A stretch of DNA of 46,486 nt, taken from NCBI GenBank assembly GCA_022759035.1, contig JAEMQD010000128.1, forward strand, positions 1 to 46,486, in the 5' to 3' direction. Position 1 is the stretch's first letter. Every line of letters starts with the position of its first letter. Below are positions 1,326-36,551 of the stretch, piece by piece. The notes beneath the pieces were generated by a model that saw only the letters and a program-made list of their open reading frames with translations, had not been told where the DNA came from and did not search any database. Origin of the DNA: Thiotrichales bacterium. Its GTDB lineage: Bacteria > Pseudomonadota > Gammaproteobacteria > Thiomicrospirales > Thiomicrospiraceae. The position numbers were made by a program, and so were the translations under genes.

Positions 1326-2615
1326 ATGAAAATAATAGTATTAACATCTCGCATTACCAGTTTAATCCTGCTCAGCCTTGCATTAGGCGCTTGTAACGCA
1401 TCTAAGCCGCGCACACCTGCACCAGTTGTTGTTCCGGGGCAAAATGCAGCGCAACCTAACCAACAGACAGCGCAAACGCAAACCCCAAGCGAAGCAACTA
1501 AACCAGTTATTCCTCCAGTTGACAACACGGCAAATGCAACCATTAAGCAGCCAGAAACAACCGAAGAAAACGCAGCTGCCTCACCAATCATTGCACCAGT
1601 GGTTGAAACAACAGAAACGCCCGAATTTGTTAAACAACAACAGCAAGCACTACGAAAAGTCGTTATTCTTTTACCCGACCGCCCCAGTTTAGCAGAAGTT
1701 AACCGAGACATCGAAAAAGGCATTCGTGCGGCACACCAACAACACCCTCTTAACAATGCGTTACAACTTATTTTTATTCATGATCCGCTACCAAGCGATC
1801 AGCTAATGGCAAAAGCAAAAGCCTTTTCTCCCGATTGGATCATTGGCCCACTAACAAAAGGCGATATTCAAGGCGCGCAAGCATTACTAGACAAACAACA
1901 AATACTGCTCAATCGCATCGACACGCCAACAGCAGCGCTTCAGTTTGGCTTGCCTGCCGAGGATGAAGCTGCTCAACTGCTTGCAAAACTCAAATCAGCA
2001 ACGCGACCAATAGCAATTGTCACCAGCGGCGATGCAACAGAGCAACGTTTATTAACCACGTTACAACAACAAGCAAGCGAATTAAGAATCCCTGTTTATG
2101 TTATTACGGTCGATAAAAACTTACCAGATATAAGAGACTGGTTGTTGCAAACTGGCGGTATTCAGGCAAGCCAAAAACGCATCGAGCGCATTAGCAAACT
2201 GACTAATACCAAGCTAGAAACACCACCACATGCACGCACAGATATTCAAGCACTCATTTTACTTGGCAATGCTCGGCAAGCACACGCCATCATGCCAGCT
2301 ATTCAGTATTACCGCCCAAACTGGTCTATATTGGCAACCAGTCGACTACTGCCAATACGCAAAGGCGAAGTGTTTAATGAACCCGAGTTCAATGAAATAC
2401 AGGTACTTACACCACCTTATTTAACAGCACCGACCGGACCAGAAACCCCTTTCGAGGCTCTTGGTTGGGATAGCTACCAACTATTAGGCAATCCCCAAGC
2501 CATTAATGTTGAAGGCATGACAGGAAAACTATTCATTAACACCAGCAACCAAGTGGTACGCCAGCTTAACTGGCAACGTATCAAACAAAATCAACTCGTA
2601 CCCGTGAATGAGTAA
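1326..2615 (+). CDS. lpoA: LpoA/LppC-family outer-membrane lipoprotein, short form
   Basis: LpoA is an outer-membrane lipoprotein that activates penicillin-binding protein 1A from the periplasmic side. I start it at ATG 1326 because this gives a clean lipoprotein signal, with lipobox LGAC and acylated Cys23; an in-frame upstream ATG at 1272 would spoil it. After Cys23 comes a Pro/Thr/Gln-rich linker of roughly 75 residues and then an LppC-like periplasmic-binding fold to the C-terminus. At 429 residues it is much shorter than the E. coli protein (over 650), so the N-terminal TPR-like domain seems absent. Position next to rsmI and yraN supports the assignment. The last 8 bp overlap yraN. Confidence 0.85.
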   Translation: MKIIVLTSRITSLILLSLALGACNASKPRTPAPVVVPGQNAAQPNQQTAQTQTPSEATKPVIPPVDNTANATIKQPETTEENAAASPIIAPVVETTETPEFVKQQQQALRKVVILLPDRPSLAEVNRDIEKGIRAAHQQHPLNNALQLIFIHDPLPSDQLMAKAKAFSPDWIIGPLTKGDIQGAQALLDKQQILLNRIDTPTAALQFGLPAEDEAAQLLAKLKSATRPIAIVTSGDATEQRLLTTLQQQASELRIPVYVITVDKNLPDIRDWLLQTGGIQASQKRIERISKLTNTKLETPPHARTDIQALILLGNARQAHAIMPAIQYYRPNWSILATSRLLPIRKGEVFNEPEFNEIQVLTPPYLTAPTGPETPFEALGWDSYQLLGNPQAINVEGMTGKLFINTSNQVVRQLNWQRIKQNQLVPVNE

Positions 2616-2979
2616 GACTCAAGAAAAAGGACAACACAGCGAGCAGTTAGCGAAAAACTTGCTTGAAGCAAGCGGACTAACCTGCATTGCAGAAAACTTT
2701 CGTTGTCGCCGTGGCGAAATCGATTTAATCTTTCTAACAAATGACACATTAGTCTTTGTTGAAGTTCGTTTACGCGAAAATAAGCACTATGCTAGTGCTG
2801 CCGAAAGCATCACTTATCGTAAACAACAGCGCATTCTACGTACTGCGCTTTATTTTTTACATACCCATCATCAATATCAAGACTGCAACTTACGTTTTGA
2901 TGTAGTATTATTTCACACATTAAACCAACATCCCGAATGGATTCAATCTGCATTCGATGCCTCAACGGCATATTATTAG
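2608..2979 (+). CDS. yraN: YraN family (UPF0102) endonuclease-fold protein
   Basis: This 123-residue protein belongs to the UPF0102/YraN family, which has a restriction-endonuclease-like fold; its cellular role is unproven. The family hallmark is seen as RRGEIDLIF followed by LVFVEVRLR (about residues 33-56), in which the E, D and E-x-R positions form the putative metal site. It starts inside the end of lpoA (8-bp overlap, ATGAGTAA), so the two are probably translationally coupled. The following dolP begins 9 bp later. Length is normal for the family. Confidence 0.92.
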   Translation: MSKTQEKGQHSEQLAKNLLEASGLTCIAENFRCRRGEIDLIFLTNDTLVFVEVRLRENKHYASAAESITYRKQQRILRTALYFLHTHHQYQDCNLRFDVVLFHTLNQHPEWIQSAFDASTAYY

Positions 2980-2988
2980 GAGACAAAC

Positions 2989-3579
2989 ATGTTACACAAA
3001 ACACTGCTGATTACCCTTACTGCTGCTGTCACTCTCTTGAGCGGTTGCGTAGCTGCACCGTTAGTTGTCGGCGCTGGCGCAGGTGCTGGTGCAGTAGCGC
3101 TAAGTGATGATCGTCGCCCTCAAGCACAAATTGCCCAAGATGATGCATCAACCTCACGCATTCAAGAACTCCTTGACCAACAAAAGCTCGCAGATAGCCC
3201 TAACCGTATTCGCTACACCGTATATAACGGTGTTGTCTTGCTGGTTGGTCAGGTAGCAAATGACAACATTCGCGCTCTTGCGCATCAAGCAGCGCAATCC
3301 GCGCCGGGCGTTAAAAACGTCATTAATGAACTAACAGTTGGCCCAGCTTTAAGCACAACGCAAATCGCGGAAGATAGCTACTTATCCAGCAAAGTTCGCA
3401 CAAAACTAGCAACGACACGAGATTTCAAGTCAAAGCACCTCACCATCGTTGTTGAAAATGGCAGTGTTTACCTCATGGGCCTGATGACAAGAGAAGAACA
3501 ACGCATCGCTGTTGCCGTAACGCGTGATGTCGATGGCGTGAAACGCGTTGTCCGCATTATGGAAAACTGGGGCGTATAA
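2989..3579 (+). CDS. dolP: Dual-BON-domain outer-membrane lipoprotein DolP (YraP)
   Basis: DolP is an outer-membrane lipoprotein that supports membrane integrity and BAM function. The 196-residue product has a lipoprotein signal with lipobox LSGC and Cys20, a short Gly/Ala-rich segment, and two BON domains (roughly residues 55-115 and 125-193), both ending in the typical GV.xV pattern. An AGGAGA ribosome-binding site lies just ahead of the ATG. In E. coli the order is lpoA-yraN-diaA-dolP; here diaA is missing from between yraN and dolP. The TAA stop abuts the start codon of the protease gene downstream. Confidence 0.93.
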   Translation: MLHKTLLITLTAAVTLLSGCVAAPLVVGAGAGAGAVALSDDRRPQAQIAQDDASTSRIQELLDQQKLADSPNRIRYTVYNGVVLLVGQVANDNIRALAHQAAQSAPGVKNVINELTVGPALSTTQIAEDSYLSSKVRTKLATTRDFKSKHLTIVVENGSVYLMGLMTREEQRIAVAVTRDVDGVKRVVRIMENWGV

Positions 3580-5100: not shown

Positions 5101-5128
5101 CCCGCAAACCTTGACCAAGGAGAAAAAC

Positions 5129-5509
5129 ATGGTGAAATCTCAGTGGATGCGCAATTTAGCCCATACGCTATTGGTTACGACTATAATGGCATCGGCAACT
5201 GTTGCGCATGCAGCAGAAGAGAAAACATTATCGGCGGCAGAAGAAGGCAAGAAAATTGCTTTTACTAATACCAAGGGTAATTGTCTCGCTTGTCACATGA
5301 TAGCTGGTGGCACCTCACCAGGTGAAATCGGCCCACCATTGATGGCAATGCAGGCTCGCTTCCCAGACAAACAAAAACTTTTTGATAAAATCTGGGGCAA
5401 ACCTGGGGTGGAATTGATGCCTGAGTCTCAGATGTTGCCTTTTGGTAAGAACAAAGTACTTACCGATGAGGAAATCAACAAGGTTGTCGAATTCCTTTAC
5501 ACCCTTTAA
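5129..5509 (+). CDS. soxX: Sulfur-oxidation c-type cytochrome SoxX
   Basis: SoxX is the monohaem subunit of the periplasmic SoxAX complex, which oxidatively couples thiosulfate to the SoxY cysteine. I start at ATG 5129, with AAGGAG seven bases upstream; the longer frame from 5111 has no such site. The 126-residue precursor has a Sec signal cleaved after about residue 28 (VAHA), the haem-c motif CLACH at 52-56, and a C-terminal MPESQMLPFG segment in which Met102 is the likely axial ligand. It is first in the order soxX-Y-Z-A, with 37 bp to soxY. Confidence 0.96.
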   Translation: MVKSQWMRNLAHTLLVTTIMASATVAHAAEEKTLSAAEEGKKIAFTNTKGNCLACHMIAGGTSPGEIGPPLMAMQARFPDKQKLFDKIWGKPGVELMPESQMLPFGKNKVLTDEEINKVVEFLYTL

Positions 5510-5546
5510 CTACTAATAACTACTCTCGCTAAGGAGAAACCTAAGC

Positions 5547-6014
5547 ATGAAACGCAGAACTTTCTTAAAAGCTGGTCTTGCTACAGGCGCAACTGCAGTT
5601 GCTGTCAACGCAGGCATGCTCGTGCCTAACACTGTTTTTGCTGCTTGGAACGAAGCTGCATTTAAAACTAAATCAGTTGACGAAGGTATGTCAGCTGTTT
5701 TTGGCGCAACTAACGCTGCTGACTCTGCAGACGTTAAATTAAAAGCGCCAGCGATTGCTGAAAACGGTGCGGTTGTACCAATTGAAGTTGATGCAACTGC
5801 GATTAAAGGTGTTGAATCTATCGCAATTTTCGCTTCTAAAAACGCTGTTCCACTAGCTTGTACTTACAAATTGTCAGGCGCTGCACAAGGTTTTGCTGCT
5901 GTTCGTATCAAAATGGGCGAAACGCAAGACGTAGTTGCTGTTGTTAAAGCTGGCGGCAAACTATTCAAAGCTAAGAGCGAAGTTAAAGTAACCATCGGTG
6001 GTTGCGGCGGTTAA
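5547..6014 (+). CDS. soxY: Thiosulfate-oxidation carrier protein SoxY
   Basis: SoxY carries the sulfur intermediates of the Sox pathway on a C-terminal cysteine and works as a heterodimer with SoxZ in the periplasm. The 155-residue precursor starts with a twin-arginine signal (KRRTFLKAG) that ends near residue 32 (TVFA), consistent with export as a folded pair with signal-less SoxZ. The protein ends in the diagnostic GGCGG swinging arm, with Cys153 as the carrier. An AAGGAGA ribosome-binding site precedes the ATG. A palindrome GGTTAATTAACC overlaps the stop codon at 6009-6020. Confidence 0.98.
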   Translation: MKRRTFLKAGLATGATAVAVNAGMLVPNTVFAAWNEAAFKTKSVDEGMSAVFGATNAADSADVKLKAPAIAENGAVVPIEVDATAIKGVESIAIFASKNAVPLACTYKLSGAAQGFAAVRIKMGETQDVVAVVKAGGKLFKAKSEVKVTIGGCGG

Positions 6015-6072
6015 TTAACCCCACTTTTTCTTTTTATTGCATATAGTTCAACAAAATTTAAGGACTCAGATC

Positions 6073-6387
6073 ATGGCAGACATTTCTTTCCGCCTGAAAG
6101 CAGAAAACAAAGGCGATGCTTACGAAATTAAAGCATTGTTCAAGCACCCAATGGAATCGGGTATGCGTAAAAACAAAGCAACTGGTGAAGTTTACCCAGC
6201 TGACTTTATTAACGAAATCACAGCTAAACTAAACGGCACACCAGTAATGGTTGCAGAATGGTCTGGCGCGGTTTCTCAAAACCCATTCCTAGCATTCAAA
6301 GTTGCTGGTAAAGCAGGTGATAAATTAGAAGTTTCTTGTACTTCTAACAAAGGCGATGCTGGTACTCAGTCAACTGATCTAGCGTAA
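6073..6387 (+). CDS. soxZ: Thiosulfate-oxidation carrier partner SoxZ
   Basis: SoxZ is the immunoglobulin-fold partner of SoxY in the SoxYZ carrier. The start at ATG 6073 gives the typical 104-residue protein beginning MADISFRLK; the frame could extend 12 codons upstream but this lacks family support, and an AAGGA site sits before 6073. Family sequence includes HPMESGMRKN near residues 28-37 and the PFLAFKVAGKAGD segment. It has no signal peptide, as expected for piggyback Tat export with SoxY. A strong hairpin follows before soxA. Confidence 0.97.
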   Translation: MADISFRLKAENKGDAYEIKALFKHPMESGMRKNKATGEVYPADFINEITAKLNGTPVMVAEWSGAVSQNPFLAFKVAGKAGDKLEVSCTSNKGDAGTQSTDLA

Positions 6388-6394
6388 GTTTCTT

Positions 6395-6433
6395 GTAAGT
6401 ACCAGTAGTGCAATAGCACTACTGGTTACTTAC
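6395..6433 (+). other. Strong intercistronic hairpin between soxZ and soxA
   Basis: Positions 6395-6411 pair with 6416-6433 to give a 17-bp stem with one bulged T (6426) and an AATA loop. There is no following T-tract (the next bases are CCCCCTCG), so it is not a classical terminator. It lies in the 91-bp gap between soxZ and soxA. A likely role is stabilising or processing the soxXYZ part of the transcript so that the SoxYZ carrier exceeds SoxA; that role is inferred. Confidence 0.75.
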
Positions 6434-6478
6434 CCCCTCGCTTTCAAACGCTAGACCCACATAGGGGAAATCAAAACA

Positions 6479-7360
6479 ATGAACAATAAACTGCTCACAA
6501 CCACCCTATTCTTATCTCTTGCAACCGCTGGCAGCTATGCCCATGCAGCAGATAGCACACCTAATCCAGAAGCGGATCGTCAAGCATTAACAAAATACAT
6601 CATGGACATGCATGGTAGTACTAAGTTTAATGGTCATCCACTTAAGGTAGAAGACTTTCGCTATGGCGCTTATGTTTTTAGTGAAGACAAATTTGAACAG
6701 CTCAAGGCAGCAGAAGAGTTTCCACCCTACCTAGATCATATTGATGCAGGTGAAAAACTCTGGAAAAAGCCATTTGCTAATGGCAAGACCTACGCAACCT
6801 GTGCAGGCTTTGATGGCGACGTCAAAGCAATTCGTCCGAAGTACCCACTTTTTGACGATGCTCGTGGTGAAGTGGTTAACTTAGACCAAGCGATTAATGA
6901 CTGTCGCGTTGCTAACGGCGAAAAACCTTATGCCTATGGCAGCAAAGATAAAGACCTAGACAAAATCATGGCATATCTTGGCTACCAAGCACGTGGCAAA
7001 AAGATTAACGTCGTCATCAACTCTCCAGGCGCACTAGACGCATACAAGCAAGGTGAAATGTTATTCCATACTCGTCGTGGACAACTTAACCAGTCATGCT
7101 CTGGATGTCATATCGCTAGTGCAGGGCGTCATATTCGCTCTAACATCTTGTCGCCAATTATTGGTCACACAACACACTTCCCAACCTACCGTGCTAACGA
7201 CGGCGACCTAGTTAGTCTACAAGCGCGTTACGTTGGCTGCATGAAGTCGATTCGTGCCTTCCCATTCCCTGCAAATAGCAAGGAATTGAAAGATATCGAA
7301 TTTTATGAAGCCTTTATGAGTAGTGGTCTTGAAATTGATGCACCGGGTTACCGTGAATAA
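6479..7360 (+). CDS. soxA: Sulfur-oxidation cytochrome SoxA, single-haem type
   Basis: SoxA is the catalytic cytochrome of SoxAX. The 293-residue precursor has a Sec signal ending at about residue 23 (AHA). Only one haem motif is present, CSGCH at 207-211. In the N-terminal half the equivalent haem site is replaced by isolated Cys108 (TYATCAG) and Cys142 (NDCRV), which probably form a disulfide as in other one-haem SoxA proteins. Cys254 in RYVGCMKSIRAF is the expected cysteine (persulfide) haem ligand of the active site. An AGGGGA site precedes the ATG. A terminator follows directly, so this is the last gene of the operon. Confidence 0.96.
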   Translation: MNNKLLTTTLFLSLATAGSYAHAADSTPNPEADRQALTKYIMDMHGSTKFNGHPLKVEDFRYGAYVFSEDKFEQLKAAEEFPPYLDHIDAGEKLWKKPFANGKTYATCAGFDGDVKAIRPKYPLFDDARGEVVNLDQAINDCRVANGEKPYAYGSKDKDLDKIMAYLGYQARGKKINVVINSPGALDAYKQGEMLFHTRRGQLNQSCSGCHIASAGRHIRSNILSPIIGHTTHFPTYRANDGDLVSLQARYVGCMKSIRAFPFPANSKELKDIEFYEAFMSSGLEIDAPGYRE

Positions 7361-28204: not shown

Positions 28205-28477
28205 ATGGCAAATATCGTTTCTGCTAAAAAACGTGTTGAAATCGCTGAACGTAACCGTTTAAGCAATGTTGCACAAAAATCTAAAACTAAAACATTAATT
28301 CGTCGCACGTTAGAAGCAGTTGCAACTGGCGATCATGCTGCTGCAATGGCTGCATTCCGCAAAGCGCAAGCACAAATTGATACCATCGCACGCAAAAATA
28401 TCATTCATGCTAACAAAGCTGCGCGCACAAAAAGCCGCTTAAATGCTCGTGTTAAAGCAATGGTGGCTAGCGCTTAA
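28205..28477 (+). CDS. rpsT: Small-subunit ribosomal protein bS20
   Basis: bS20 is a primary binder of 16S rRNA in the 30S subunit. The 90-residue protein is typical: MANIVSAKKRVEIAERNRLSN at the start (without the extra residues of some forms), a central KTLIRRTLEAVATGD, and the C-terminal basic KAARTKSRLNARV. A consensus promoter lies upstream and an efficient terminator follows, so it is monocistronic. It is oriented away from the TauE/SafE gene. Confidence 0.98.
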   Translation: MANIVSAKKRVEIAERNRLSNVAQKSKTKTLIRRTLEAVATGDHAAAMAAFRKAQAQIDTIARKNIIHANKAARTKSRLNARVKAMVASA

Positions 28478-28490
28478 CGCGCTTATACAG

Positions 28491-28518
28491 AAAAAGCCGG
28501 CTGCATGCCGGCTTTTTT
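28491..28518 (+). terminator. Rho-independent terminator of rpsT
   Basis: GCCGGC (28496-28501) pairs with GCCGGC (28507-28512) around TGCAT, flanked by A5 before and T6 after. It overlaps the region where the next reading frame (DUF1800) would need its start. Confidence 0.93.
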
Positions 28519-28556
28519 GTTTTCGTCGTCACAACGCACAACCAAGCATTATTGCG

Positions 28557-29888
28557 TTGTTACTGCTGTGCGCCACTTACCACCCAGCGCATGCCTTAAC
28601 CATTAGTGATGCGCGACACTTACTCGCTCGTACAGGCTTCGATCCAACCTGGCAAGAAATTTCTCCCTTACTTCCGCTTTCTCGAGAACAGGCTGTTGTC
28701 CGTATTGTGACGCAAGCTAGCACTAAACCAATTCACCCCATAGACAACACATTGATGACTGCGCCAGAAGTAAGTCATGAAACCATGATGCTTCGTAGCC
28801 CCGATGAGCGTCAAGCGGCGCAAAAACTCGAACGACAAAGATTAGAAAGCCTGCAAAGCTGGTGGGTACAACAAATGGTTGAAACCAAAACACCGCTAGC
28901 CGAGCAAATGATGCTTTTTTGGCACAACCATTTTACCTCTAGTATTCAAAAAGTTCGAACAGCACGACTCATGGCATTACAGCACAACACGCAGCGGCGC
29001 TTTGCCTTAGACAACTTCGCCAACTTACTTAACGCGATGATTCACGATCCAGCTATGTTGCGTTATCTTGATGCCGCAAATAATCGCAAAGAACAACCTA
29101 ATGAAAACTTTGCAAGAGAGTTGCTCGAATTATTTAGCCTAGGCATAGGAAACTACCGCGAGCAAGACATCAAAGAGGCTTCGCGTGCTTTTTCTGGATG
29201 GACAGTTAATCGCGAAAATGCCTGTTTTCAATTTAACGCAAAAGAACATGACAACGGCATAAAAACCTTTTTAGGCAAAACAGGGAACTTTAACGGCGAT
29301 GATATTATCCGCATCGTCTTAGATCAACCCGCCACTAGCCGCTTCATTATCACCAAACTATGGCGACAATTTATTTCTGACACACCCGATTTAGCAACAG
29401 TTAATATGCTCGCAATACGCTGGCAACACAACCATCATTACGATATCAAACTACTGTTGATAGATCTATTTAATACCGACGCGTTTTGGGATCAGCGGAA
29501 TCATGGTGTATTAGTAAAGTCTCCCACCGATTACATCGTTGGTTTACTTAGGGTTTGGAAATCACCTAATGAACAATCACCACAATGGCGCAACCAAATC
29601 AGTCTATTGGGACAAGATTTATTCAACCCACCCAATGTTAAAGGATGGGAAGGCGGCAATAGTTGGATTAACACCAATACCTTTGTTGCACGCCAACAGC
29701 TAATTAGACACTTCCTATACGACCCCAATGGCATGCGCAGCAAAAAACTACCCGAAACATGGAATAGTGCCACGCAACAACTTTGGCAGATGGTATTATT
29801 GGCGTTGCCACCGAATAATTATCCAGACGGTAGACCGATCCAACAAATAGAAGCTTGGCTGCTCGACCCCATTTTTCAATTAAAGTAA
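28557..29888 (+). CDS. DUF1800 family exported protein (start uncertain)
   Basis: DUF1800 proteins are exported proteins of unknown role, usually encoded beside a DUF1501 protein, as here. Family features include ARHLLARTGFDPTW near the start, MLFWHNHFTSS, NENFARELLELFSLGIG, SRAFSGWT, and NVKGWEGGNSWINTNT. The start is unclear: no ATG lies between the rpsT terminator and the conserved region. TTG 28557 is a fallback; the in-frame stretch FRRHN..SIIALLLLCA..PAHA (28515-28595) looks like a signal peptide, so initiation at ATT 28548 or further upstream is possible. The long frame reaching back to 28443 would run through the rpsT terminator. Confidence 0.83.
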   Translation: MLLLCATYHPAHALTISDARHLLARTGFDPTWQEISPLLPLSREQAVVRIVTQASTKPIHPIDNTLMTAPEVSHETMMLRSPDERQAAQKLERQRLESLQSWWVQQMVETKTPLAEQMMLFWHNHFTSSIQKVRTARLMALQHNTQRRFALDNFANLLNAMIHDPAMLRYLDAANNRKEQPNENFARELLELFSLGIGNYREQDIKEASRAFSGWTVNRENACFQFNAKEHDNGIKTFLGKTGNFNGDDIIRIVLDQPATSRFIITKLWRQFISDTPDLATVNMLAIRWQHNHHYDIKLLLIDLFNTDAFWDQRNHGVLVKSPTDYIVGLLRVWKSPNEQSPQWRNQISLLGQDLFNPPNVKGWEGGNSWINTNTFVARQQLIRHFLYDPNGMRSKKLPETWNSATQQLWQMVLLALPPNNYPDGRPIQQIEAWLLDPIFQLK

Positions 29889-29904
29889 GCGCACAGAAAA
29901 AACA

Positions 29905-31059
29905 ATGGAACGACGTGATTTTTTCAAATTACTCATTGGCACACCCTTTGCACTGGCTAGCCCAATTAGTCAAGCAAGTAGCCTAGGTAAAACCCTTATT
30001 CTGATTGAGCTTTCTGGCGGCAATGATGGCTTAAACACCCTAATCCCTTTTCGGGATAAACACTATTATCAATACCGACCAACCCTTGCCTTGCAAACAG
30101 AGGCTTGCATTCCTCTTAGCGAATCGCTCGCTTTAAATAGCGCGCTAACCCGCTTACACCCTTGGTGGAAAAAAGGTAATCTTGCTTGGGTGCAAGGCGT
30201 CGGATATCCACATCCTAACCGCTCACACTTCAGCTCACTTGATATTTGGGAAAGTGGCTCAGGCGCAGAGCAAAGTTTAGCAACTGGCTGGTTAGCAAAG
30301 GTCATCCCACAATTGCACATTGAACGTCATTTAGATGGTATTTCTTTAGCGAACGATCTTGGACCGCTCAACGGATTAAACAACAGCCTACTCCTAACAG
30401 ATGTACAACGTTTTCTAAACCAAGCCAACCAATTATCCCTTTCTGAACCTACCATTCATCAAGAAAATCAAGCACTAACACACATTCAACAGGTCGCTTA
30501 TCAAGCCAAACGCTCAGCGTTTGAAATTAGCCAACTACTCGGCAAATCACCCCAAATCCCGCTCAATTTTCCAGACAATGCTTTTGGAAAGCGCTTAGCA
30601 CTTGCCGCACAACTCCTTATCGCTGGCGTCAAAACGCCCGTTATTAAAGTAAGCATCGGCAGTTTTGATACCCATAATAATCAGTATGAGCAACATCAAC
30701 GCTTGCTAACCAACCTAGCCGCAGGGTTAGATAGTTTCGCACAAACTATGGTGGCGCATAACTTATGGCAAGACACAATCATTATGACCTATTCAGAATT
30801 TGGGCGGCGGGTCATTGAAAACGCCAGCCAGGGCACAGATCATGGCACAGCCGCACCGCACCTAGTCATGGGCGGCGCAGTAAAGGGCGGCTTGTACGGG
30901 GCGCAACCCAAACTGACCGATTTAGACAATGGCGATTTACGATTTACCACCGACTTTAGACAACTCTACGCGACACTCACACATCATTGGTGGGGTATAG
31001 ACAATCATGCACTACAAACGAAAGGATTTAGTGCTATTCCTTTACTAAAAAATGTTTAG
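29905..31059 (+). CDS. DUF1501 family exported protein
   Basis: The 384-residue protein has a twin-arginine style signal (MERRDFFKLLIGTPFALASP, with RRDFFK), then LILIELSGGNDGLNTLIPF near residue 30-48, the DUF1501 hallmark of the sulfatase and alkaline-phosphatase-like fold. Later signatures are NRSHFSSLDIWESG, SFDTHNNQ, YSEFGRRVIENASQGTDHGTAAPHLVMG. It is 16 bp downstream of the DUF1800 gene, the usual partner. The biochemical role of the pair is unproven. Its stop overlaps that of the convergent ferredoxin gene. Confidence 0.92.
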   Translation: MERRDFFKLLIGTPFALASPISQASSLGKTLILIELSGGNDGLNTLIPFRDKHYYQYRPTLALQTEACIPLSESLALNSALTRLHPWWKKGNLAWVQGVGYPHPNRSHFSSLDIWESGSGAEQSLATGWLAKVIPQLHIERHLDGISLANDLGPLNGLNNSLLLTDVQRFLNQANQLSLSEPTIHQENQALTHIQQVAYQAKRSAFEISQLLGKSPQIPLNFPDNAFGKRLALAAQLLIAGVKTPVIKVSIGSFDTHNNQYEQHQRLLTNLAAGLDSFAQTMVAHNLWQDTIIMTYSEFGRRVIENASQGTDHGTAAPHLVMGGAVKGGLYGAQPKLTDLDNGDLRFTTDFRQLYATLTHHWWGIDNHALQTKGFSAIPLLKNV

Positions 31060-31521: not shown

Positions 31522-31797
31522 ATGTCTTCGCCTAATAGCCTAAACAACGCTGTACATAGCGTATTAGAACATTATTTCACCACCTTAGATGGTGAAATTC
31601 CTAGCAACCTGCACGCAATTATGACGCAAGAAATGGAGCGTGGCTTGTTAGAATTCGTTATGCGCAGAACAGGTAATAATCAAAGCATGTGTGCACGTTG
31701 GCTTGGCATTAATCGTAACACGTTAAATAAAAAACTGAAACAATATGGCCTTGTGCCGCAAGTTAACCTTTCTGTTGGAGATTCACCTCATGCTTAA
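31522..31797 (+). CDS. fis: DNA-binding protein Fis
   Basis: Fis bends DNA and regulates growth-phase genes. The 91-residue protein has the C-terminal helix-turn-helix [20 protein letters not shown] and the preceding [23 protein letters not shown] region. The N-terminus is shorter than in enterobacteria and lacks most of the beta-hairpin arm. In many gammaproteobacteria fis follows dusB; here it leads purH and overlaps it by 8 bp. Confidence 0.94.
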
Positions 31798-33370
31798 ACC
31801 TGTTCGTCGCGCCTTATTAAGCGTTTCCGATAAAGCCGGCCTCATCGATTTTGCACGCACATTAAACAGCATGGGTGTTGAATTACTCTCGACTGGCGGC
31901 ACTTTTAAAGCAATCAAAGATGCGAATATCCCTGTTATTGAAGTATCAAGCTACACAGGCTTTCCTGAAATGATGGATGGCCGCGTAAAAACGCTACATC
32001 CTAAAGTGCATGGCGGTTTATTAGGACGTCGGGGTACCGATGACGCAATTATGGCTGAACATGGCATTCAGGCAATTGATCTATTAGTGGTTAACTTGTA
32101 CCCATTTGAAGCGACAGTAGCCAACCCTAACTGTAGCTTAGAAGATGCCATCGAAAACATCGATATTGGTGGTCCTGCCATGCTACGTGCAGCAGCTAAA
32201 AACCATGCCGACGTTGCCGTTATTACCGACATTGCCGACTATGGACGCATTATCGACGAGATGAAAGCAAACGCTGGGCAATTATCTCATGCAACGCGTT
32301 TTGATCTTGCCATTAAAACGTATGAAACAACTTCTCGTTACGATGGCGCTATCGCTAATTATTTCGGTGCACGCTTGGGTGAGGCAACATTTGAACAACC
32401 TGCACTTTTCCCACGCACATTTAGCAGCCAATTTGTTAAAGCACAAGACTTACGCTATGGCGAAAACCCGCATCAAAACGCCGCTTTCTATATTGATCCT
32501 AAAGCTAAGGAAGCTTCTGTCGCTACTGCTCGACAACTTCAGGGAAAAGAGCTGTCATACAACAACATTGCCGATACCGATGCTGCGCTAGAATGCGTTA
32601 AGTCATTCGTCAAGCCTGCTTGTGTTATTGTTAAACACGCCAATCCGTGTGGCGTAGCGGTTAGCCTCGATGGCATTCGCACAGCCTACGACCTTGCTTA
32701 CGCTACCGATCCAGAATCTGCTTTTGGCGGCATTATTGCCTTCAACCGACCACTTGATACAGATACCATGCAAGCCATTATTAGCCGTCAATTTGTCGAA
32801 GTCATTATTGCACCAGAAGTCTCGCAAGCAGCCCTCGCAATCGCAGCTAGCAAGCCGAATGTTCGCGTATTAACTTGTGGCGTTTTACCAGAAACGCGTA
32901 GTCCTTTCCTAGACTTCAAACGTGTCAATGGCGGACTACTTGTACAAGATGCAGACATGGGCATGATTCAAGAAAGCGACTTAAAAGTTGTTACGCAACG
33001 CGTACCTACCGAAGCTGAAATGCACGACCTCATTTTTGCTTGGAAAGTAGCAAAATATGTCAAATCGAATGCAATTATTTATGCTAAAAACCGTCAAACG
33101 ATTGGTATTGGTGCCGGCCAAATGAGCCGCGTTAACTCTGCAAGAATTGCAGCGATTAAAGCAGAGCACGCGGGCTTACAAGTGAAAGGTGCCGTGATGG
33201 CATCAGACGCTTTTTTCCCATTCCGTGACGGCATCGACAATGCTGCTTCTGTCGGTATTAGCTGCATTATTCAACCTGGCGGCTCTATGCGTGACCAAGA
33301 AGTGATTGATGCTGCCAATGAGCACGGCATGGCCATGGTATTTACGGGTATGCGTCACTTCCGTCACTAA
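31790..33370 (+). CDS. purH: Bifunctional AICAR transformylase / IMP cyclohydrolase PurH
   Basis: PurH does the last two steps of IMP synthesis. The start ATG 31790 has GGAG nine bases upstream; the frame open from 31745 lies inside fis. The 526-residue protein has the N-terminal cyclohydrolase domain ([18 protein letters not shown], then [11 protein letters not shown]) and the C-terminal transformylase domain with [23 protein letters not shown] and [10 protein letters not shown]. It is coupled to fis. purD, normally next, lies 1.9 kb downstream after two unrelated genes. Confidence 0.97.
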
Positions 33371-33436: not shown

Positions 33437-34138
33437 ATGTTAAAACAAATCATCTTGTTTTTTTCGATCTTCCTAAGCATAACCACTTGCATTACCGCCT
33501 GCAGCAAGGAGTCAGCCATGCATGATACATCGGCAAAGCAACTTATCGTATTTACCGCACCAGACTGTGCTTTTTGTAAACAATTTAAGCAAGAAATTGT
33601 TGCCCAGTGGCAAAGCGATATGCCAATTCAAGAAATCGCAACAAGCCAACCACCAGATGGCTTAATCTTAGAAAAACCTTTATTTGCAACGCCAACCATT
33701 GTGCTCTTTCAACAAGGAAAGGAAATTGCGCGCTATACGGGTTATGAAGGCGACAAAATGCGCTTTTGGAAATGGCTCGGTTTTCAACTGCTGACACCCG
33801 ACCAACAGCGCATCGCTTTTGAGCAAGGCACAGAGCGCCCCTTTACTGGATCACATTTAGATGAAAAACGCCCTGGCACCTTTGTCGATCCGATTACGGG
33901 CGCCCCTATTTTCAGAACAGATACCAAATTTAACAGCGGCACTGGCTGGCCAAGCTTTTTCAACCCTGTTGAAGGCGCAATTGTACTCGTAGAAGATAAC
34001 AGCCATGGCATGCATCGTGTCGAAGTCCGTAGTGCAAGCTCTGGCATTCATCTTGGCCATGTCTTTGATGATGGCCCACCCCCGACAGGTAAGCGCTACT
34101 GTATCAATGGCAATGTGCTTAAATTTATTCCTGATTAA
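33437..34138 (+). CDS. Lipoprotein fusing a thioredoxin-like domain to MsrB
   Basis: The 233-residue protein starts at ATG 33437 (GGGAG upstream). It has a lipoprotein signal with lipobox ITAC and Cys22, a thioredoxin-like domain (about 34-115) with active site CAFC at 44-47 and a cis-Pro in ATPT, and a C-terminal methionine-R-sulfoxide reductase domain (about 120-233). MsrB motifs are present: GTERPFTGSHL, SGTGWPSFF, IHLGHVFDDGP and RYCINGN with catalytic Cys222. Both zinc CXXC pairs of the usual MsrB are replaced (DPIT and SASSG), leaving Cys222 as the only Cys in that domain. It probably repairs periplasmic proteins, reduced by its own thioredoxin domain. Confidence 0.9.
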   Translation: MLKQIILFFSIFLSITTCITACSKESAMHDTSAKQLIVFTAPDCAFCKQFKQEIVAQWQSDMPIQEIATSQPPDGLILEKPLFATPTIVLFQQGKEIARYTGYEGDKMRFWKWLGFQLLTPDQQRIAFEQGTERPFTGSHLDEKRPGTFVDPITGAPIFRTDTKFNSGTGWPSFFNPVEGAIVLVEDNSHGMHRVEVRSASSGIHLGHVFDDGPPPTGKRYCINGNVLKFIPD

Positions 34139-34400
34139 TTTTTAACATGAAGAAATTGCTAACAAACCCCCTTCACTTGTTTTTAGGCATTCATGCTTTT
34201 CAGTTGAGTAAACTTATTGCTCATTGCATTAAATTCTATTTCTCGCAACTAATTCCTACATCATCTCTCGCATGATTCAGCAGAAACTTCTCAAGCAAAT
34301 AAAATGCATATTTTTTCCCATTTTTATAACTATTCATAACCGTTGATAACGTTTAAAATTAGCGATTGTTTATTTTTACATGACAAAAAAGGAATTCTTA
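34139..34400 (+). other. Intergenic gap with no gene seen
   Basis: This A/T-rich stretch separates the Trx-MsrB gene from the carbonic anhydrase gene. I find no gene, tRNA or clear terminator in it. A promoter for the carbonic anhydrase is expected near its 3' end but no good -35/-10 pair is visible. Confidence 0.6.
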
Positions 34401-35138
34401 ATGAAAAAGCACCTTCTCACACTTGCCTTAATCACTTTTAGCAGCATGACTTTTGCCGACAGCCATGACGCCCACTGGGGATATGAGGGCAATGACAGTC
34501 CAGAACATTGGGGAAAACTCAGCCCAGACTATGCACTCTGTAGCACAGGTAAAAATCAATCCCCAATCAACATTACCCAAACCCTAGAAGCAGAAACACC
34601 AAAAATCACCATTAACTACACGCAAGGTGGATATGAAGTCATCAATAATGGACACACCATTCAGGTCAATGTCAATTCAGGTAGTAGCATTACCTTACAA
34701 GGCCACACCTATCAATTAAAACAATTCCACTTCCATGCGCCTAGCGAAAACGAAATTGATGGCAAATCTTACCCTCTAGAAGCGCACTTTGTTCATGCCG
34801 ACGACAAAGGCAATCTTGCTGTAATTGGTGTAATGTTTAAGATTGGCAAGGAAAATAGTGCATTGAAAAAAGCATGGGCAAACATGCCAGCGAAAGCAGG
34901 CGACAAAGCCGAACTTGTACACAAAATTAGCGCCATCAGCCTACTACCAAACAACAAAGACTATTACCGTTTCAACGGCTCTTTAACAACCCCACCCTGC
35001 TCTGAAGGCGTCACATGGTTAGTGATGAAAAAACCAATGACTGTTTCTCAAGCACAACTCGAACAATTCACTAAGGTGATGGGACATCCAAACAATCGCC
35101 CCGTACAACCCGTGAATGCACGCCCTGTGTTGAAATAA
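34401..35138 (+). CDS. Periplasmic alpha-carbonic anhydrase
   Basis: The enzyme interconverts CO2 and bicarbonate. ATG 34401 has AAGGAA upstream and gives a 245-residue precursor with a short Sec signal (cleaved near MTFA, about residue 19). The alpha-class zinc ligands are clear: His110 and His112 (FHFHAPSE) and His129 (EAHFVH), and His85 in NNGHTIQV matches the proton-shuttle position. Cys47 and Cys200 (TTPPCSEG) likely form the conserved disulfide. In sulfur-oxidising autotrophs such periplasmic enzymes help supply inorganic carbon. A terminator follows. Confidence 0.95.
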   Translation: MKKHLLTLALITFSSMTFADSHDAHWGYEGNDSPEHWGKLSPDYALCSTGKNQSPINITQTLEAETPKITINYTQGGYEVINNGHTIQVNVNSGSSITLQGHTYQLKQFHFHAPSENEIDGKSYPLEAHFVHADDKGNLAVIGVMFKIGKENSALKKAWANMPAKAGDKAELVHKISAISLLPNNKDYYRFNGSLTTPPCSEGVTWLVMKKPMTVSQAQLEQFTKVMGHPNNRPVQPVNARPVLK

Positions 35139-35249: not shown

Positions 35250-36551
35250 ATGAATATTCTCGTTATCGGCAATGGCGGCCGTGAGCACGCCCTAGCATGG
35301 AAATTAGCGCAATCAACTCAAGTTAACAAAGTTTACGTTGCGCCTGGCAATCCTGGAACAGCACAAGAAGCCAAATGTGAAAACGTAGCGATTGGCGCAA
35401 CCGATGTTGCTGCTTTAGTCACATTTGCACAAGCTAATAACATTGCACTAACGGTTGTTGGACCAGAAGCGCCACTCGCTGCTGGCATTGTTGATGCGTT
35501 TCGCGTTGCCAATTTAGCCATTTTTGGACCAACTAAAATCGCTGCACAACTAGAAAGTTCAAAAGCTTTTGCTAAGGATTTTATGGCACGCCACCATATT
35601 CCTACCGCATTTTATCAGGTCTTTACTGGTGAACAACGTGCTGAAGCACTCGCCTACGTCAGAGAAAAGGGTGCCCCCATTGTGTTAAAAGCCGATGGCT
35701 TAGCTGCGGGTAAAGGGGTAATCGTAGCGATGACCCTTGCCGAAGCAGAAGCTGGCGTCGAAGACATTCTAGGTGGAAAGTTTGGCTCTGCTGGTGCGAG
35801 ACTCGTCGTCGAAGAATTCTTAGCAGGCGAAGAAGCCAGTTTCATCGTCATGTGTGATGGAAAAAATGCACTACCAATGGCAACCAGCCAAGATCACAAA
35901 GCACGAGATAATGGCGATAAAGGACCGAATACTGGCGGCATGGGCGCGTACTCACCTGCGCCTGTTGTAACAAATGATGTACACAATAAAATTATGGAAC
36001 GTATTATTAACCCAGTACTGCTAGGCATGGCAGAAGAAGGCAACCCTTACACTGGTTTTTTATACGCAGGATGCATGATAGACAGCGATGGCAACCCTAA
36101 AACCTTAGAATTTAACTGTCGCTTTGGTGATCCAGAAACACAGCCCATTATGATGCGCCTACAATCAGACTTAGTCGAATTGGTTAAAGCCGCGCTCGCC
36201 TGTCAACTGGATACAACCACCACCCAGTGGGATACACGAGTGGCTGTCGGCGTAGTTATGGCCGCAGCCAATTATCCAGATGAGCCCAAAAAAGGCGACA
36301 TCATTACAGGCATTACTAAAGCAGAAGCAACCGGCGCCAAAGTCTTTCAGGCTGGAACAGCAACAGATGCTTCAGGCAATATCATCACAAACGGCGGGCG
36401 CGTACTCTGTGTCACCGCTCTAGGCGAAAGCACAGAACAAGCGCAAGCTGCTGCCTATAACGCATTACAACAAGTACAATTTGAGGGTGCCTTTTATCGT
36501 ACCGATATCGGCTATCGCGCCATTGAGCGTGAAAAAATGCGTAAAACTTGA
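35250..36551 (+). CDS. purD: Phosphoribosylamine-glycine ligase PurD
   Basis: PurD (GAR synthetase) adds glycine to phosphoribosylamine in purine synthesis. The 433-residue ATP-grasp enzyme starts MNILVIGNGGREHALAW and shows GPEAPLAAGIVD, the ATP-grasp segment VLKADGLAAGKGVIVA, QDHKARDNGDKGPNTGGMGAYSPAP, and EFNCRFGDPETQ. Length is normal. Unlike E. coli, it is not directly after purH. Confidence 0.97.
   Translation: MNILVIGNGGREHALAWKLAQSTQVNKVYVAPGNPGTAQEAKCENVAIGATDVAALVTFAQANNIALTVVGPEAPLAAGIVDAFRVANLAIFGPTKIAAQLESSKAFAKDFMARHHIPTAFYQVFTGEQRAEALAYVREKGAPIVLKADGLAAGKGVIVAMTLAEAEAGVEDILGGKFGSAGARLVVEEFLAGEEASFIVMCDGKNALPMATSQDHKARDNGDKGPNTGGMGAYSPAPVVTNDVHNKIMERIINPVLLGMAEEGNPYTGFLYAGCMIDSDGNPKTLEFNCRFGDPETQPIMMRLQSDLVELVKAALACQLDTTTTQWDTRVAVGVVMAAANYPDEPKKGDIITGITKAEATGAKVFQAGTATDASGNIITNGGRVLCVTALGESTEQAQAAAYNALQQVQFEGAFYRTDIGYRAIEREKMRKT

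Follow-up and report, generated by a model that had tools for sequence, protein, structure and literature searches.

In methionine sulfoxide reductases of the MsrB type, a catalytic cysteine reacts with the sulfoxide and is itself converted to a sulfenic acid, and the zinc of these enzymes occupies one site, which is built from two CxxC pairs. Fusions of MsrB with thioredoxin (Trx) and MsrA domains are already known: PilB of Neisseria (Trx-MsrA-MsrB) is well studied, and the order MSRA-Trx-MSRB has been named for archaeal enzymes in a review suggesting that the Trx domain feeds the MSR domains (PMC6211008). The Trx domain of PilB is of the TlpA type; it draws electrons from DsbD and passes them to MsrB within the chain but to MsrA between chains, and the linkers of the protein are 20 and 26 residues long (PMC6210582). 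Here, we describe a two-domain Trx-MsrB gene in a 46,486-nucleotide stretch of a sulfur-oxidising Thiotrichales bacterium of the Thiomicrospiraceae (the whole stretch is called the window below; coordinates are collected in Table 1). We consider it probable that its product is an envelope lipoprotein that would reduce methionine-R-sulfoxide in envelope proteins with its own recharging domain in the same chain, and that it arose through loss of MsrA. The literature that we searched, which is a part of the whole, described neither a two-domain SoxS-type Trx-MsrB protein nor the exchange between a Trx CxxC and an MsrB cysteine that is presented below.

Like PilB, the window protein would be exported and pairs a Trx-fold domain with MsrB in the same chain. 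However, PilB begins with a TlpA-type Trx domain, has long linkers and carries both a catalytic and a regenerating cysteine in its MsrB domain, whereas in the window protein a SoxS-type Trx domain abuts an MsrB domain with a single cysteine. The first-pass annotation of this DNA had seen a simpler form of Neisseria PilB, and this description did not hold: in its closest relatives a SoxS-type Trx lies between MsrA and MsrB, and the window form probably reflects a secondary loss of MsrA from this architecture. Membership in the PilB-type family (PRK14018) was also rejected, given a score of 115 bits against a cut-off of 522 and the A-Trx-B domain order of the relatives; even L005, a relative with all three domains, stays below that cut-off (265 bits).

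The fusion itself, with a lipoprotein-type signal and a CAFC motif, had been correctly recognized. Pfam places Thioredoxin_2 at residues 33-114 (expect value, E, 1.9e-10) and SelR/MsrB at residues 119-232 (E 1.3e-41); the SelR score is 141.6 bits against a cut-off of 24.9, and the MsrB model TIGR00357 gives 145 bits against 113. Translation would start at an ATG directly preceded by AGGGAG, which resembles a ribosome-binding site, and the N-terminus consists of a short hydrophobic stretch followed by ITAC-SKES. The lipobox ITAC (residues 19-22) is a weaker form, but the sister-species genes carry LTAC-AKE and LSAC-AQE at the end of the signal, and for this reason the protein, whose signal was read by eye, is likely a lipoprotein; it would face the periplasm. 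Cys22 would presumably be lipidated if the anchor is real. Along with Cys18, this residue adds to the cysteines named in the first-pass annotation, and the protein has five in all: 18 and 22 in the signal and lipobox, 44 and 47 in CAFC, and the catalytic Cys222.

Judged by its residues, the MsrB domain is catalytically complete and predicted to be active: Cys222, W171, H205, H208, R220 and N224, together with Cys44 and Cys47 of the Trx domain, are invariant across a 64-row alignment. The motifs VDPITGA and SASSGIH stand in place of the two CxxC pairs, so that all four zinc ligands are absent. The replacement of these pairs was therefore rightly noted, although the earlier wording of "both zinc sites" was not right, as the pairs form a single site. 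Nor is the loss a special feature, as had been supposed. The zinc-free MsrB of Bacillus subtilis (3e0o) has the same kind of replacement (YVDIVSG and RSRTADSH), which makes the missing site ordinary. Where the two enzymes differ is at the common resolving position, which is Cys in B. subtilis (SQCGWPSF), Thr in the window protein (SGTGWPSF) and Thr or Ser throughout the family (SG[TS]GWPSF). The MsrB of Xanthomonas campestris (3hcj) shares SGTGWPSF with the window protein; in contrast, it keeps the zinc CxxC pairs and has a cysteine in GTEAPFC, both of which the window protein lacks. Thus the MsrB domain has no resolving cysteine, as the first-pass annotation had stated, and Cys222, which it had treated as the possible exception, is the catalytic residue.

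Each of the 111 family loci, some few of them repeat copies, has exactly three cysteines in its Trx-MsrB part, and all three are invariant in the alignment. On these grounds, Cys44 and Cys47 would be the only thiols of the mature protein able to resolve the Cys222 sulfenate, lipobox Cys22 aside. We propose that the reaction of Cys222 with the sulfoxide leaves a sulfenic acid on this residue, that Cys44 then attacks this sulfenate to form a Cys44-Cys222 disulfide, which Cys47 would resolve, and that the Trx domain regains its reduced state from the cytosol by way of DsbD, a membrane hub. The first step is suggested by the residues and the second by comparison; for the third, a complete DsbD is encoded in the genome.

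The strongest support for the fused Trx domain as resolver comes from a natural exchange. In three species of genus g6 (L136, at 2132-3292, L137 and L138; genomes G054, G061 and G053), the protein has the MsrA-Trx-MsrB form, but its middle domain has no CxxC and its MsrB domain has a cysteine in GTERPFC, which aligns with GTEAPFC of the X. campestris enzyme. These three proteins have no signal peptide evident by eye and have likely moved to the cytosol. We take the cysteine in GTEAPFC to be the resolving cysteine of the X. campestris MsrB. As a literature search on X. campestris Cys31 and on Thiobacillus MsrB found nothing, this role is assigned with the help of the general description in PMC7475093. 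Among the 109 three-domain proteins that we scored, 105 have the CxxC with Thr or Ser at the Xanthomonas-type site, three have the cysteine there and no CxxC, and one has both. In the MsrA-domain tree, the CxxC-less group branches from among proteins of its own genus that keep the CxxC (86/87 and 93/77), and the swap therefore looks derived, with moderate support; the MsrA-only tree was used because a combined MsrA and MsrB tree with an outgroup joined long branches. This comparison supports the earlier suggestion that the Trx domain acts as internal reductant of the Cys222 sulfenate, as CxxC-bearing relatives have, with one exception, no resolving cysteine in MsrB. We lean towards a broader reading of this family of single-cysteine, zinc-free MsrB domains, in which the resolving thiol moved to the fused SoxS-type Trx domain and the two kinds of resolving cysteine are exchangeable, the local one being absent while the CxxC is present and regained upon loss of the signal peptide and the CxxC.

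Several points weigh against resolution by the fused domain. The exception, the distant MsrA-Trx-MsrB protein L151 (1462-2895; 44% identity), has both the Trx CxxC and the Xanthomonas-type cysteine, a double state that is perhaps ancestral, and the exchange in the three g6 species is one evolutionary event with moderate support. Two AlphaFold models reach a mean predicted local distance difference test (pLDDT) of 75.8 and 80.5, and confidence in their MsrB part is weak, falling below 50 in places. Furthermore, there is almost no linker between the Trx helix at 107-118 and the MsrB helix at 121-129. Reach within one chain may therefore be harder, and transfer between molecules is possible; the short junction could mean a fixed arrangement, one that either favours or prevents transfer within the chain. 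One alternative is thus that the sulfenate is resolved between molecules, in a dimer or among crowded lipoproteins, or directly by DsbD. In human MsrB3, resolving cysteines can indeed act between molecules (PMC7475093), but the counterpart step from Trx to MsrB in PilB is intramolecular (PMC6210582). We regard this alternative as possible though rather unlikely.

The nature of the Trx domain brings in a second alternative. Among solved structures, SoxS of Paracoccus pantotrophus (3dml/3d4t) comes closest to it, both in sequence (E 2e-8) and in fold: the fold comparison gave a Z of 12.3 and a root-mean-square deviation of 1.6 across 88 residues, while other thioredoxins follow with Z of about 10, and Foldseek likewise points to SoxS. 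SoxS, a periplasmic thioredoxin of sulfur oxidation, is a stand-alone protein without MsrB, unlike the window domain. It could be that a general SoxS-like periplasmic reductant, serving SoxYZ or other disulfides, was fused to MsrB by chance and that other periplasmic thioredoxins recharge the MsrB domain. This likeness speaks for such a scenario, as do a cluster at 5111-7360 of the window that reads by eye as soxX, soxY, soxZ and soxA, the SoxC encoded on another contig of the genome, and the 14 Trx_2 matches in the whole genome. On the other hand, members of the family also occur in Azonexus and Dechloromonas, genera that were not chosen for sulfur oxidation, and we find this scenario improbable. 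Even with these sox genes in the window and genome, the likeness to SoxS is the sole tie of the fusion to sulfur oxidation.

We turn to the origin of the Trx-MsrB protein, which appears to be a self-recharging enzyme. Matches at E 1e-10 or better occur in 59 of the 63 genomes of the order, most of the strong ones in frames of about 430-480 residues, and a scan with one genome per species gave 216 relatives, from which we retained 80. Nearly all relatives have the longer, exported form, composed of a signal, MsrA (GMGCFWGAE), Trx and MsrB, which the first-pass annotation had missed. They are found in sulfur-oxidising and related Proteobacteria, among them Thiomicrospira-like bacteria, Chromatiaceae, Thiobacillaceae, Rhodocyclaceae, Azonexaceae, Halothiobacillus, Acidithiobacillus and others. 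The family is rare when sampling is broadened: at E 1e-45, and with the window genome counted, it was present in 5 of 369 genomes from the class and in 3 of 398 from the phylum. These MsrA-Trx-MsrB fusions (about 420-480 residues) share about 67-80% identity with the window protein over the Trx-MsrB part, along with the same three cysteines, a zinc-free MsrB and a lipoprotein or Sec-type signal; the window protein differs in having no N-terminal MsrA domain. Of the loci that we read, only those of the window species, of two members of the same genus (G001 and G002, whose genes are identical to the entries L032 and L033) and of a Gallionella (L110) have the two-domain form.

The Trx-MsrB tree joins the window gene to that of G002 (99/99), and the Gallionella gene sits apart from them among full-length genes of Betaproteobacteria (85/90). 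MsrA was therefore probably lost at least twice, once in a clade of the window genus and separately in Gallionella; together, the relatives and the tree support derivation of the two-domain gene from an MsrA-Trx-MsrB ancestor. As the window signal resembles that of full-length lipoprotein relatives (CSKESAM against CAKEPAM, for example), the sequences suggest that the loss was in-frame. The full-length gene of G003, a genome placed in the same genus, falls beside those of Halothiobacillaceae and Chromatiaceae, so that exchange of the gene between lineages is likely. A plasmid search returned matches to the MsrB domain only, none of them covering more than 80% of the Trx-MsrB protein. We also rejected the possibility that MsrA had become a gene of its own by separation from the fusion, since no MsrA match was present within the Trx-MsrB gene or elsewhere in the window and the stand-alone MsrA of the genus falls outside the fused MsrA clade (100/100). 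As a separate observation, the MsrA domain of L140 (2469-2977, draft genome G035) is spread over two frames, through a frameshift or an assembly error. That the window gene is a decaying remnant is very improbable: it is missing the MsrA domain of almost all relatives, but all its catalytic residues are kept, three species hold it at the same place, and the two sister two-domain genes that we compared are under purifying selection (nonsynonymous divergence, dN, 0.017; synonymous divergence, dS, 0.37; dN/dS about 0.05).

Apart from this gene, the window genome has no MsrB. Its sole MsrA is of a separate type, belongs to another clade and has no signal peptide. No MsrP was found in the genome, and MsrP as a substitute for MsrA was rejected, the only molybdopterin match being SoxC. 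In G001 (97% complete), the Trx-MsrB gene is present and no MsrA match was found.

In three members of the genus the two-domain gene lies between purH and purD; in the full-length relatives checked, these two genes do not neighbour it. Further upstream, at 28443-31059, a gene pair resembles by eye the DUF1800 and DUF1501 families.

Table 1. Features of the Trx-MsrB locus in the window
Feature	Position	Strand	Details	Basis
Trx-MsrB gene, probable envelope lipoprotein	33437..34138	+	233 aa	Open reading frame translation, Pfam and TIGRFAM matches
Signal peptide and lipobox	33437..33502	+	ITAC, ending at Cys22	Sequence reading by eye
SoxS-type thioredoxin domain	33530..33790	+	Residues 32-118; CAFC at Cys44/Cys47; cis-Pro motif TPT at 85-87	Pfam, alignment, sequence and fold comparison
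MsrB (SelR) domain, zinc-free	33791..34132	+	Catalytic Cys222; invariant W171, H205, H208, R220, N224	Pfam, TIGR00357, alignment
purH	31745..33370	+	66 bases upstream of the Trx-MsrB gene; same order in two sister species	
purD	35250..36551	+	Downstream; in G001 and G002 within about 30 bases after the Trx-MsrB gene	
Exported carbonic-anhydrase-like gene	34380-35138		Between Trx-MsrB and purD; not at that place in two sister species	By eye

In conclusion, how MsrB enzymes that have no resolving cysteine close by deal with their sulfenic acid is a live question, for example for mammalian MsrB3. The window enzyme represents a minimal two-domain form that keeps only Trx and MsrB, the two domains that react with each other within one chain in PilB. 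Together with close relatives in which the Trx CxxC has been swapped for a local cysteine, it makes this question testable by a few mutants. For the organism, with Trx-MsrB predicted outside, an MsrA that has no signal peptide and no MsrP, envelope repair would, among the enzymes searched for, be limited to one stereoisomer of methionine sulfoxide.
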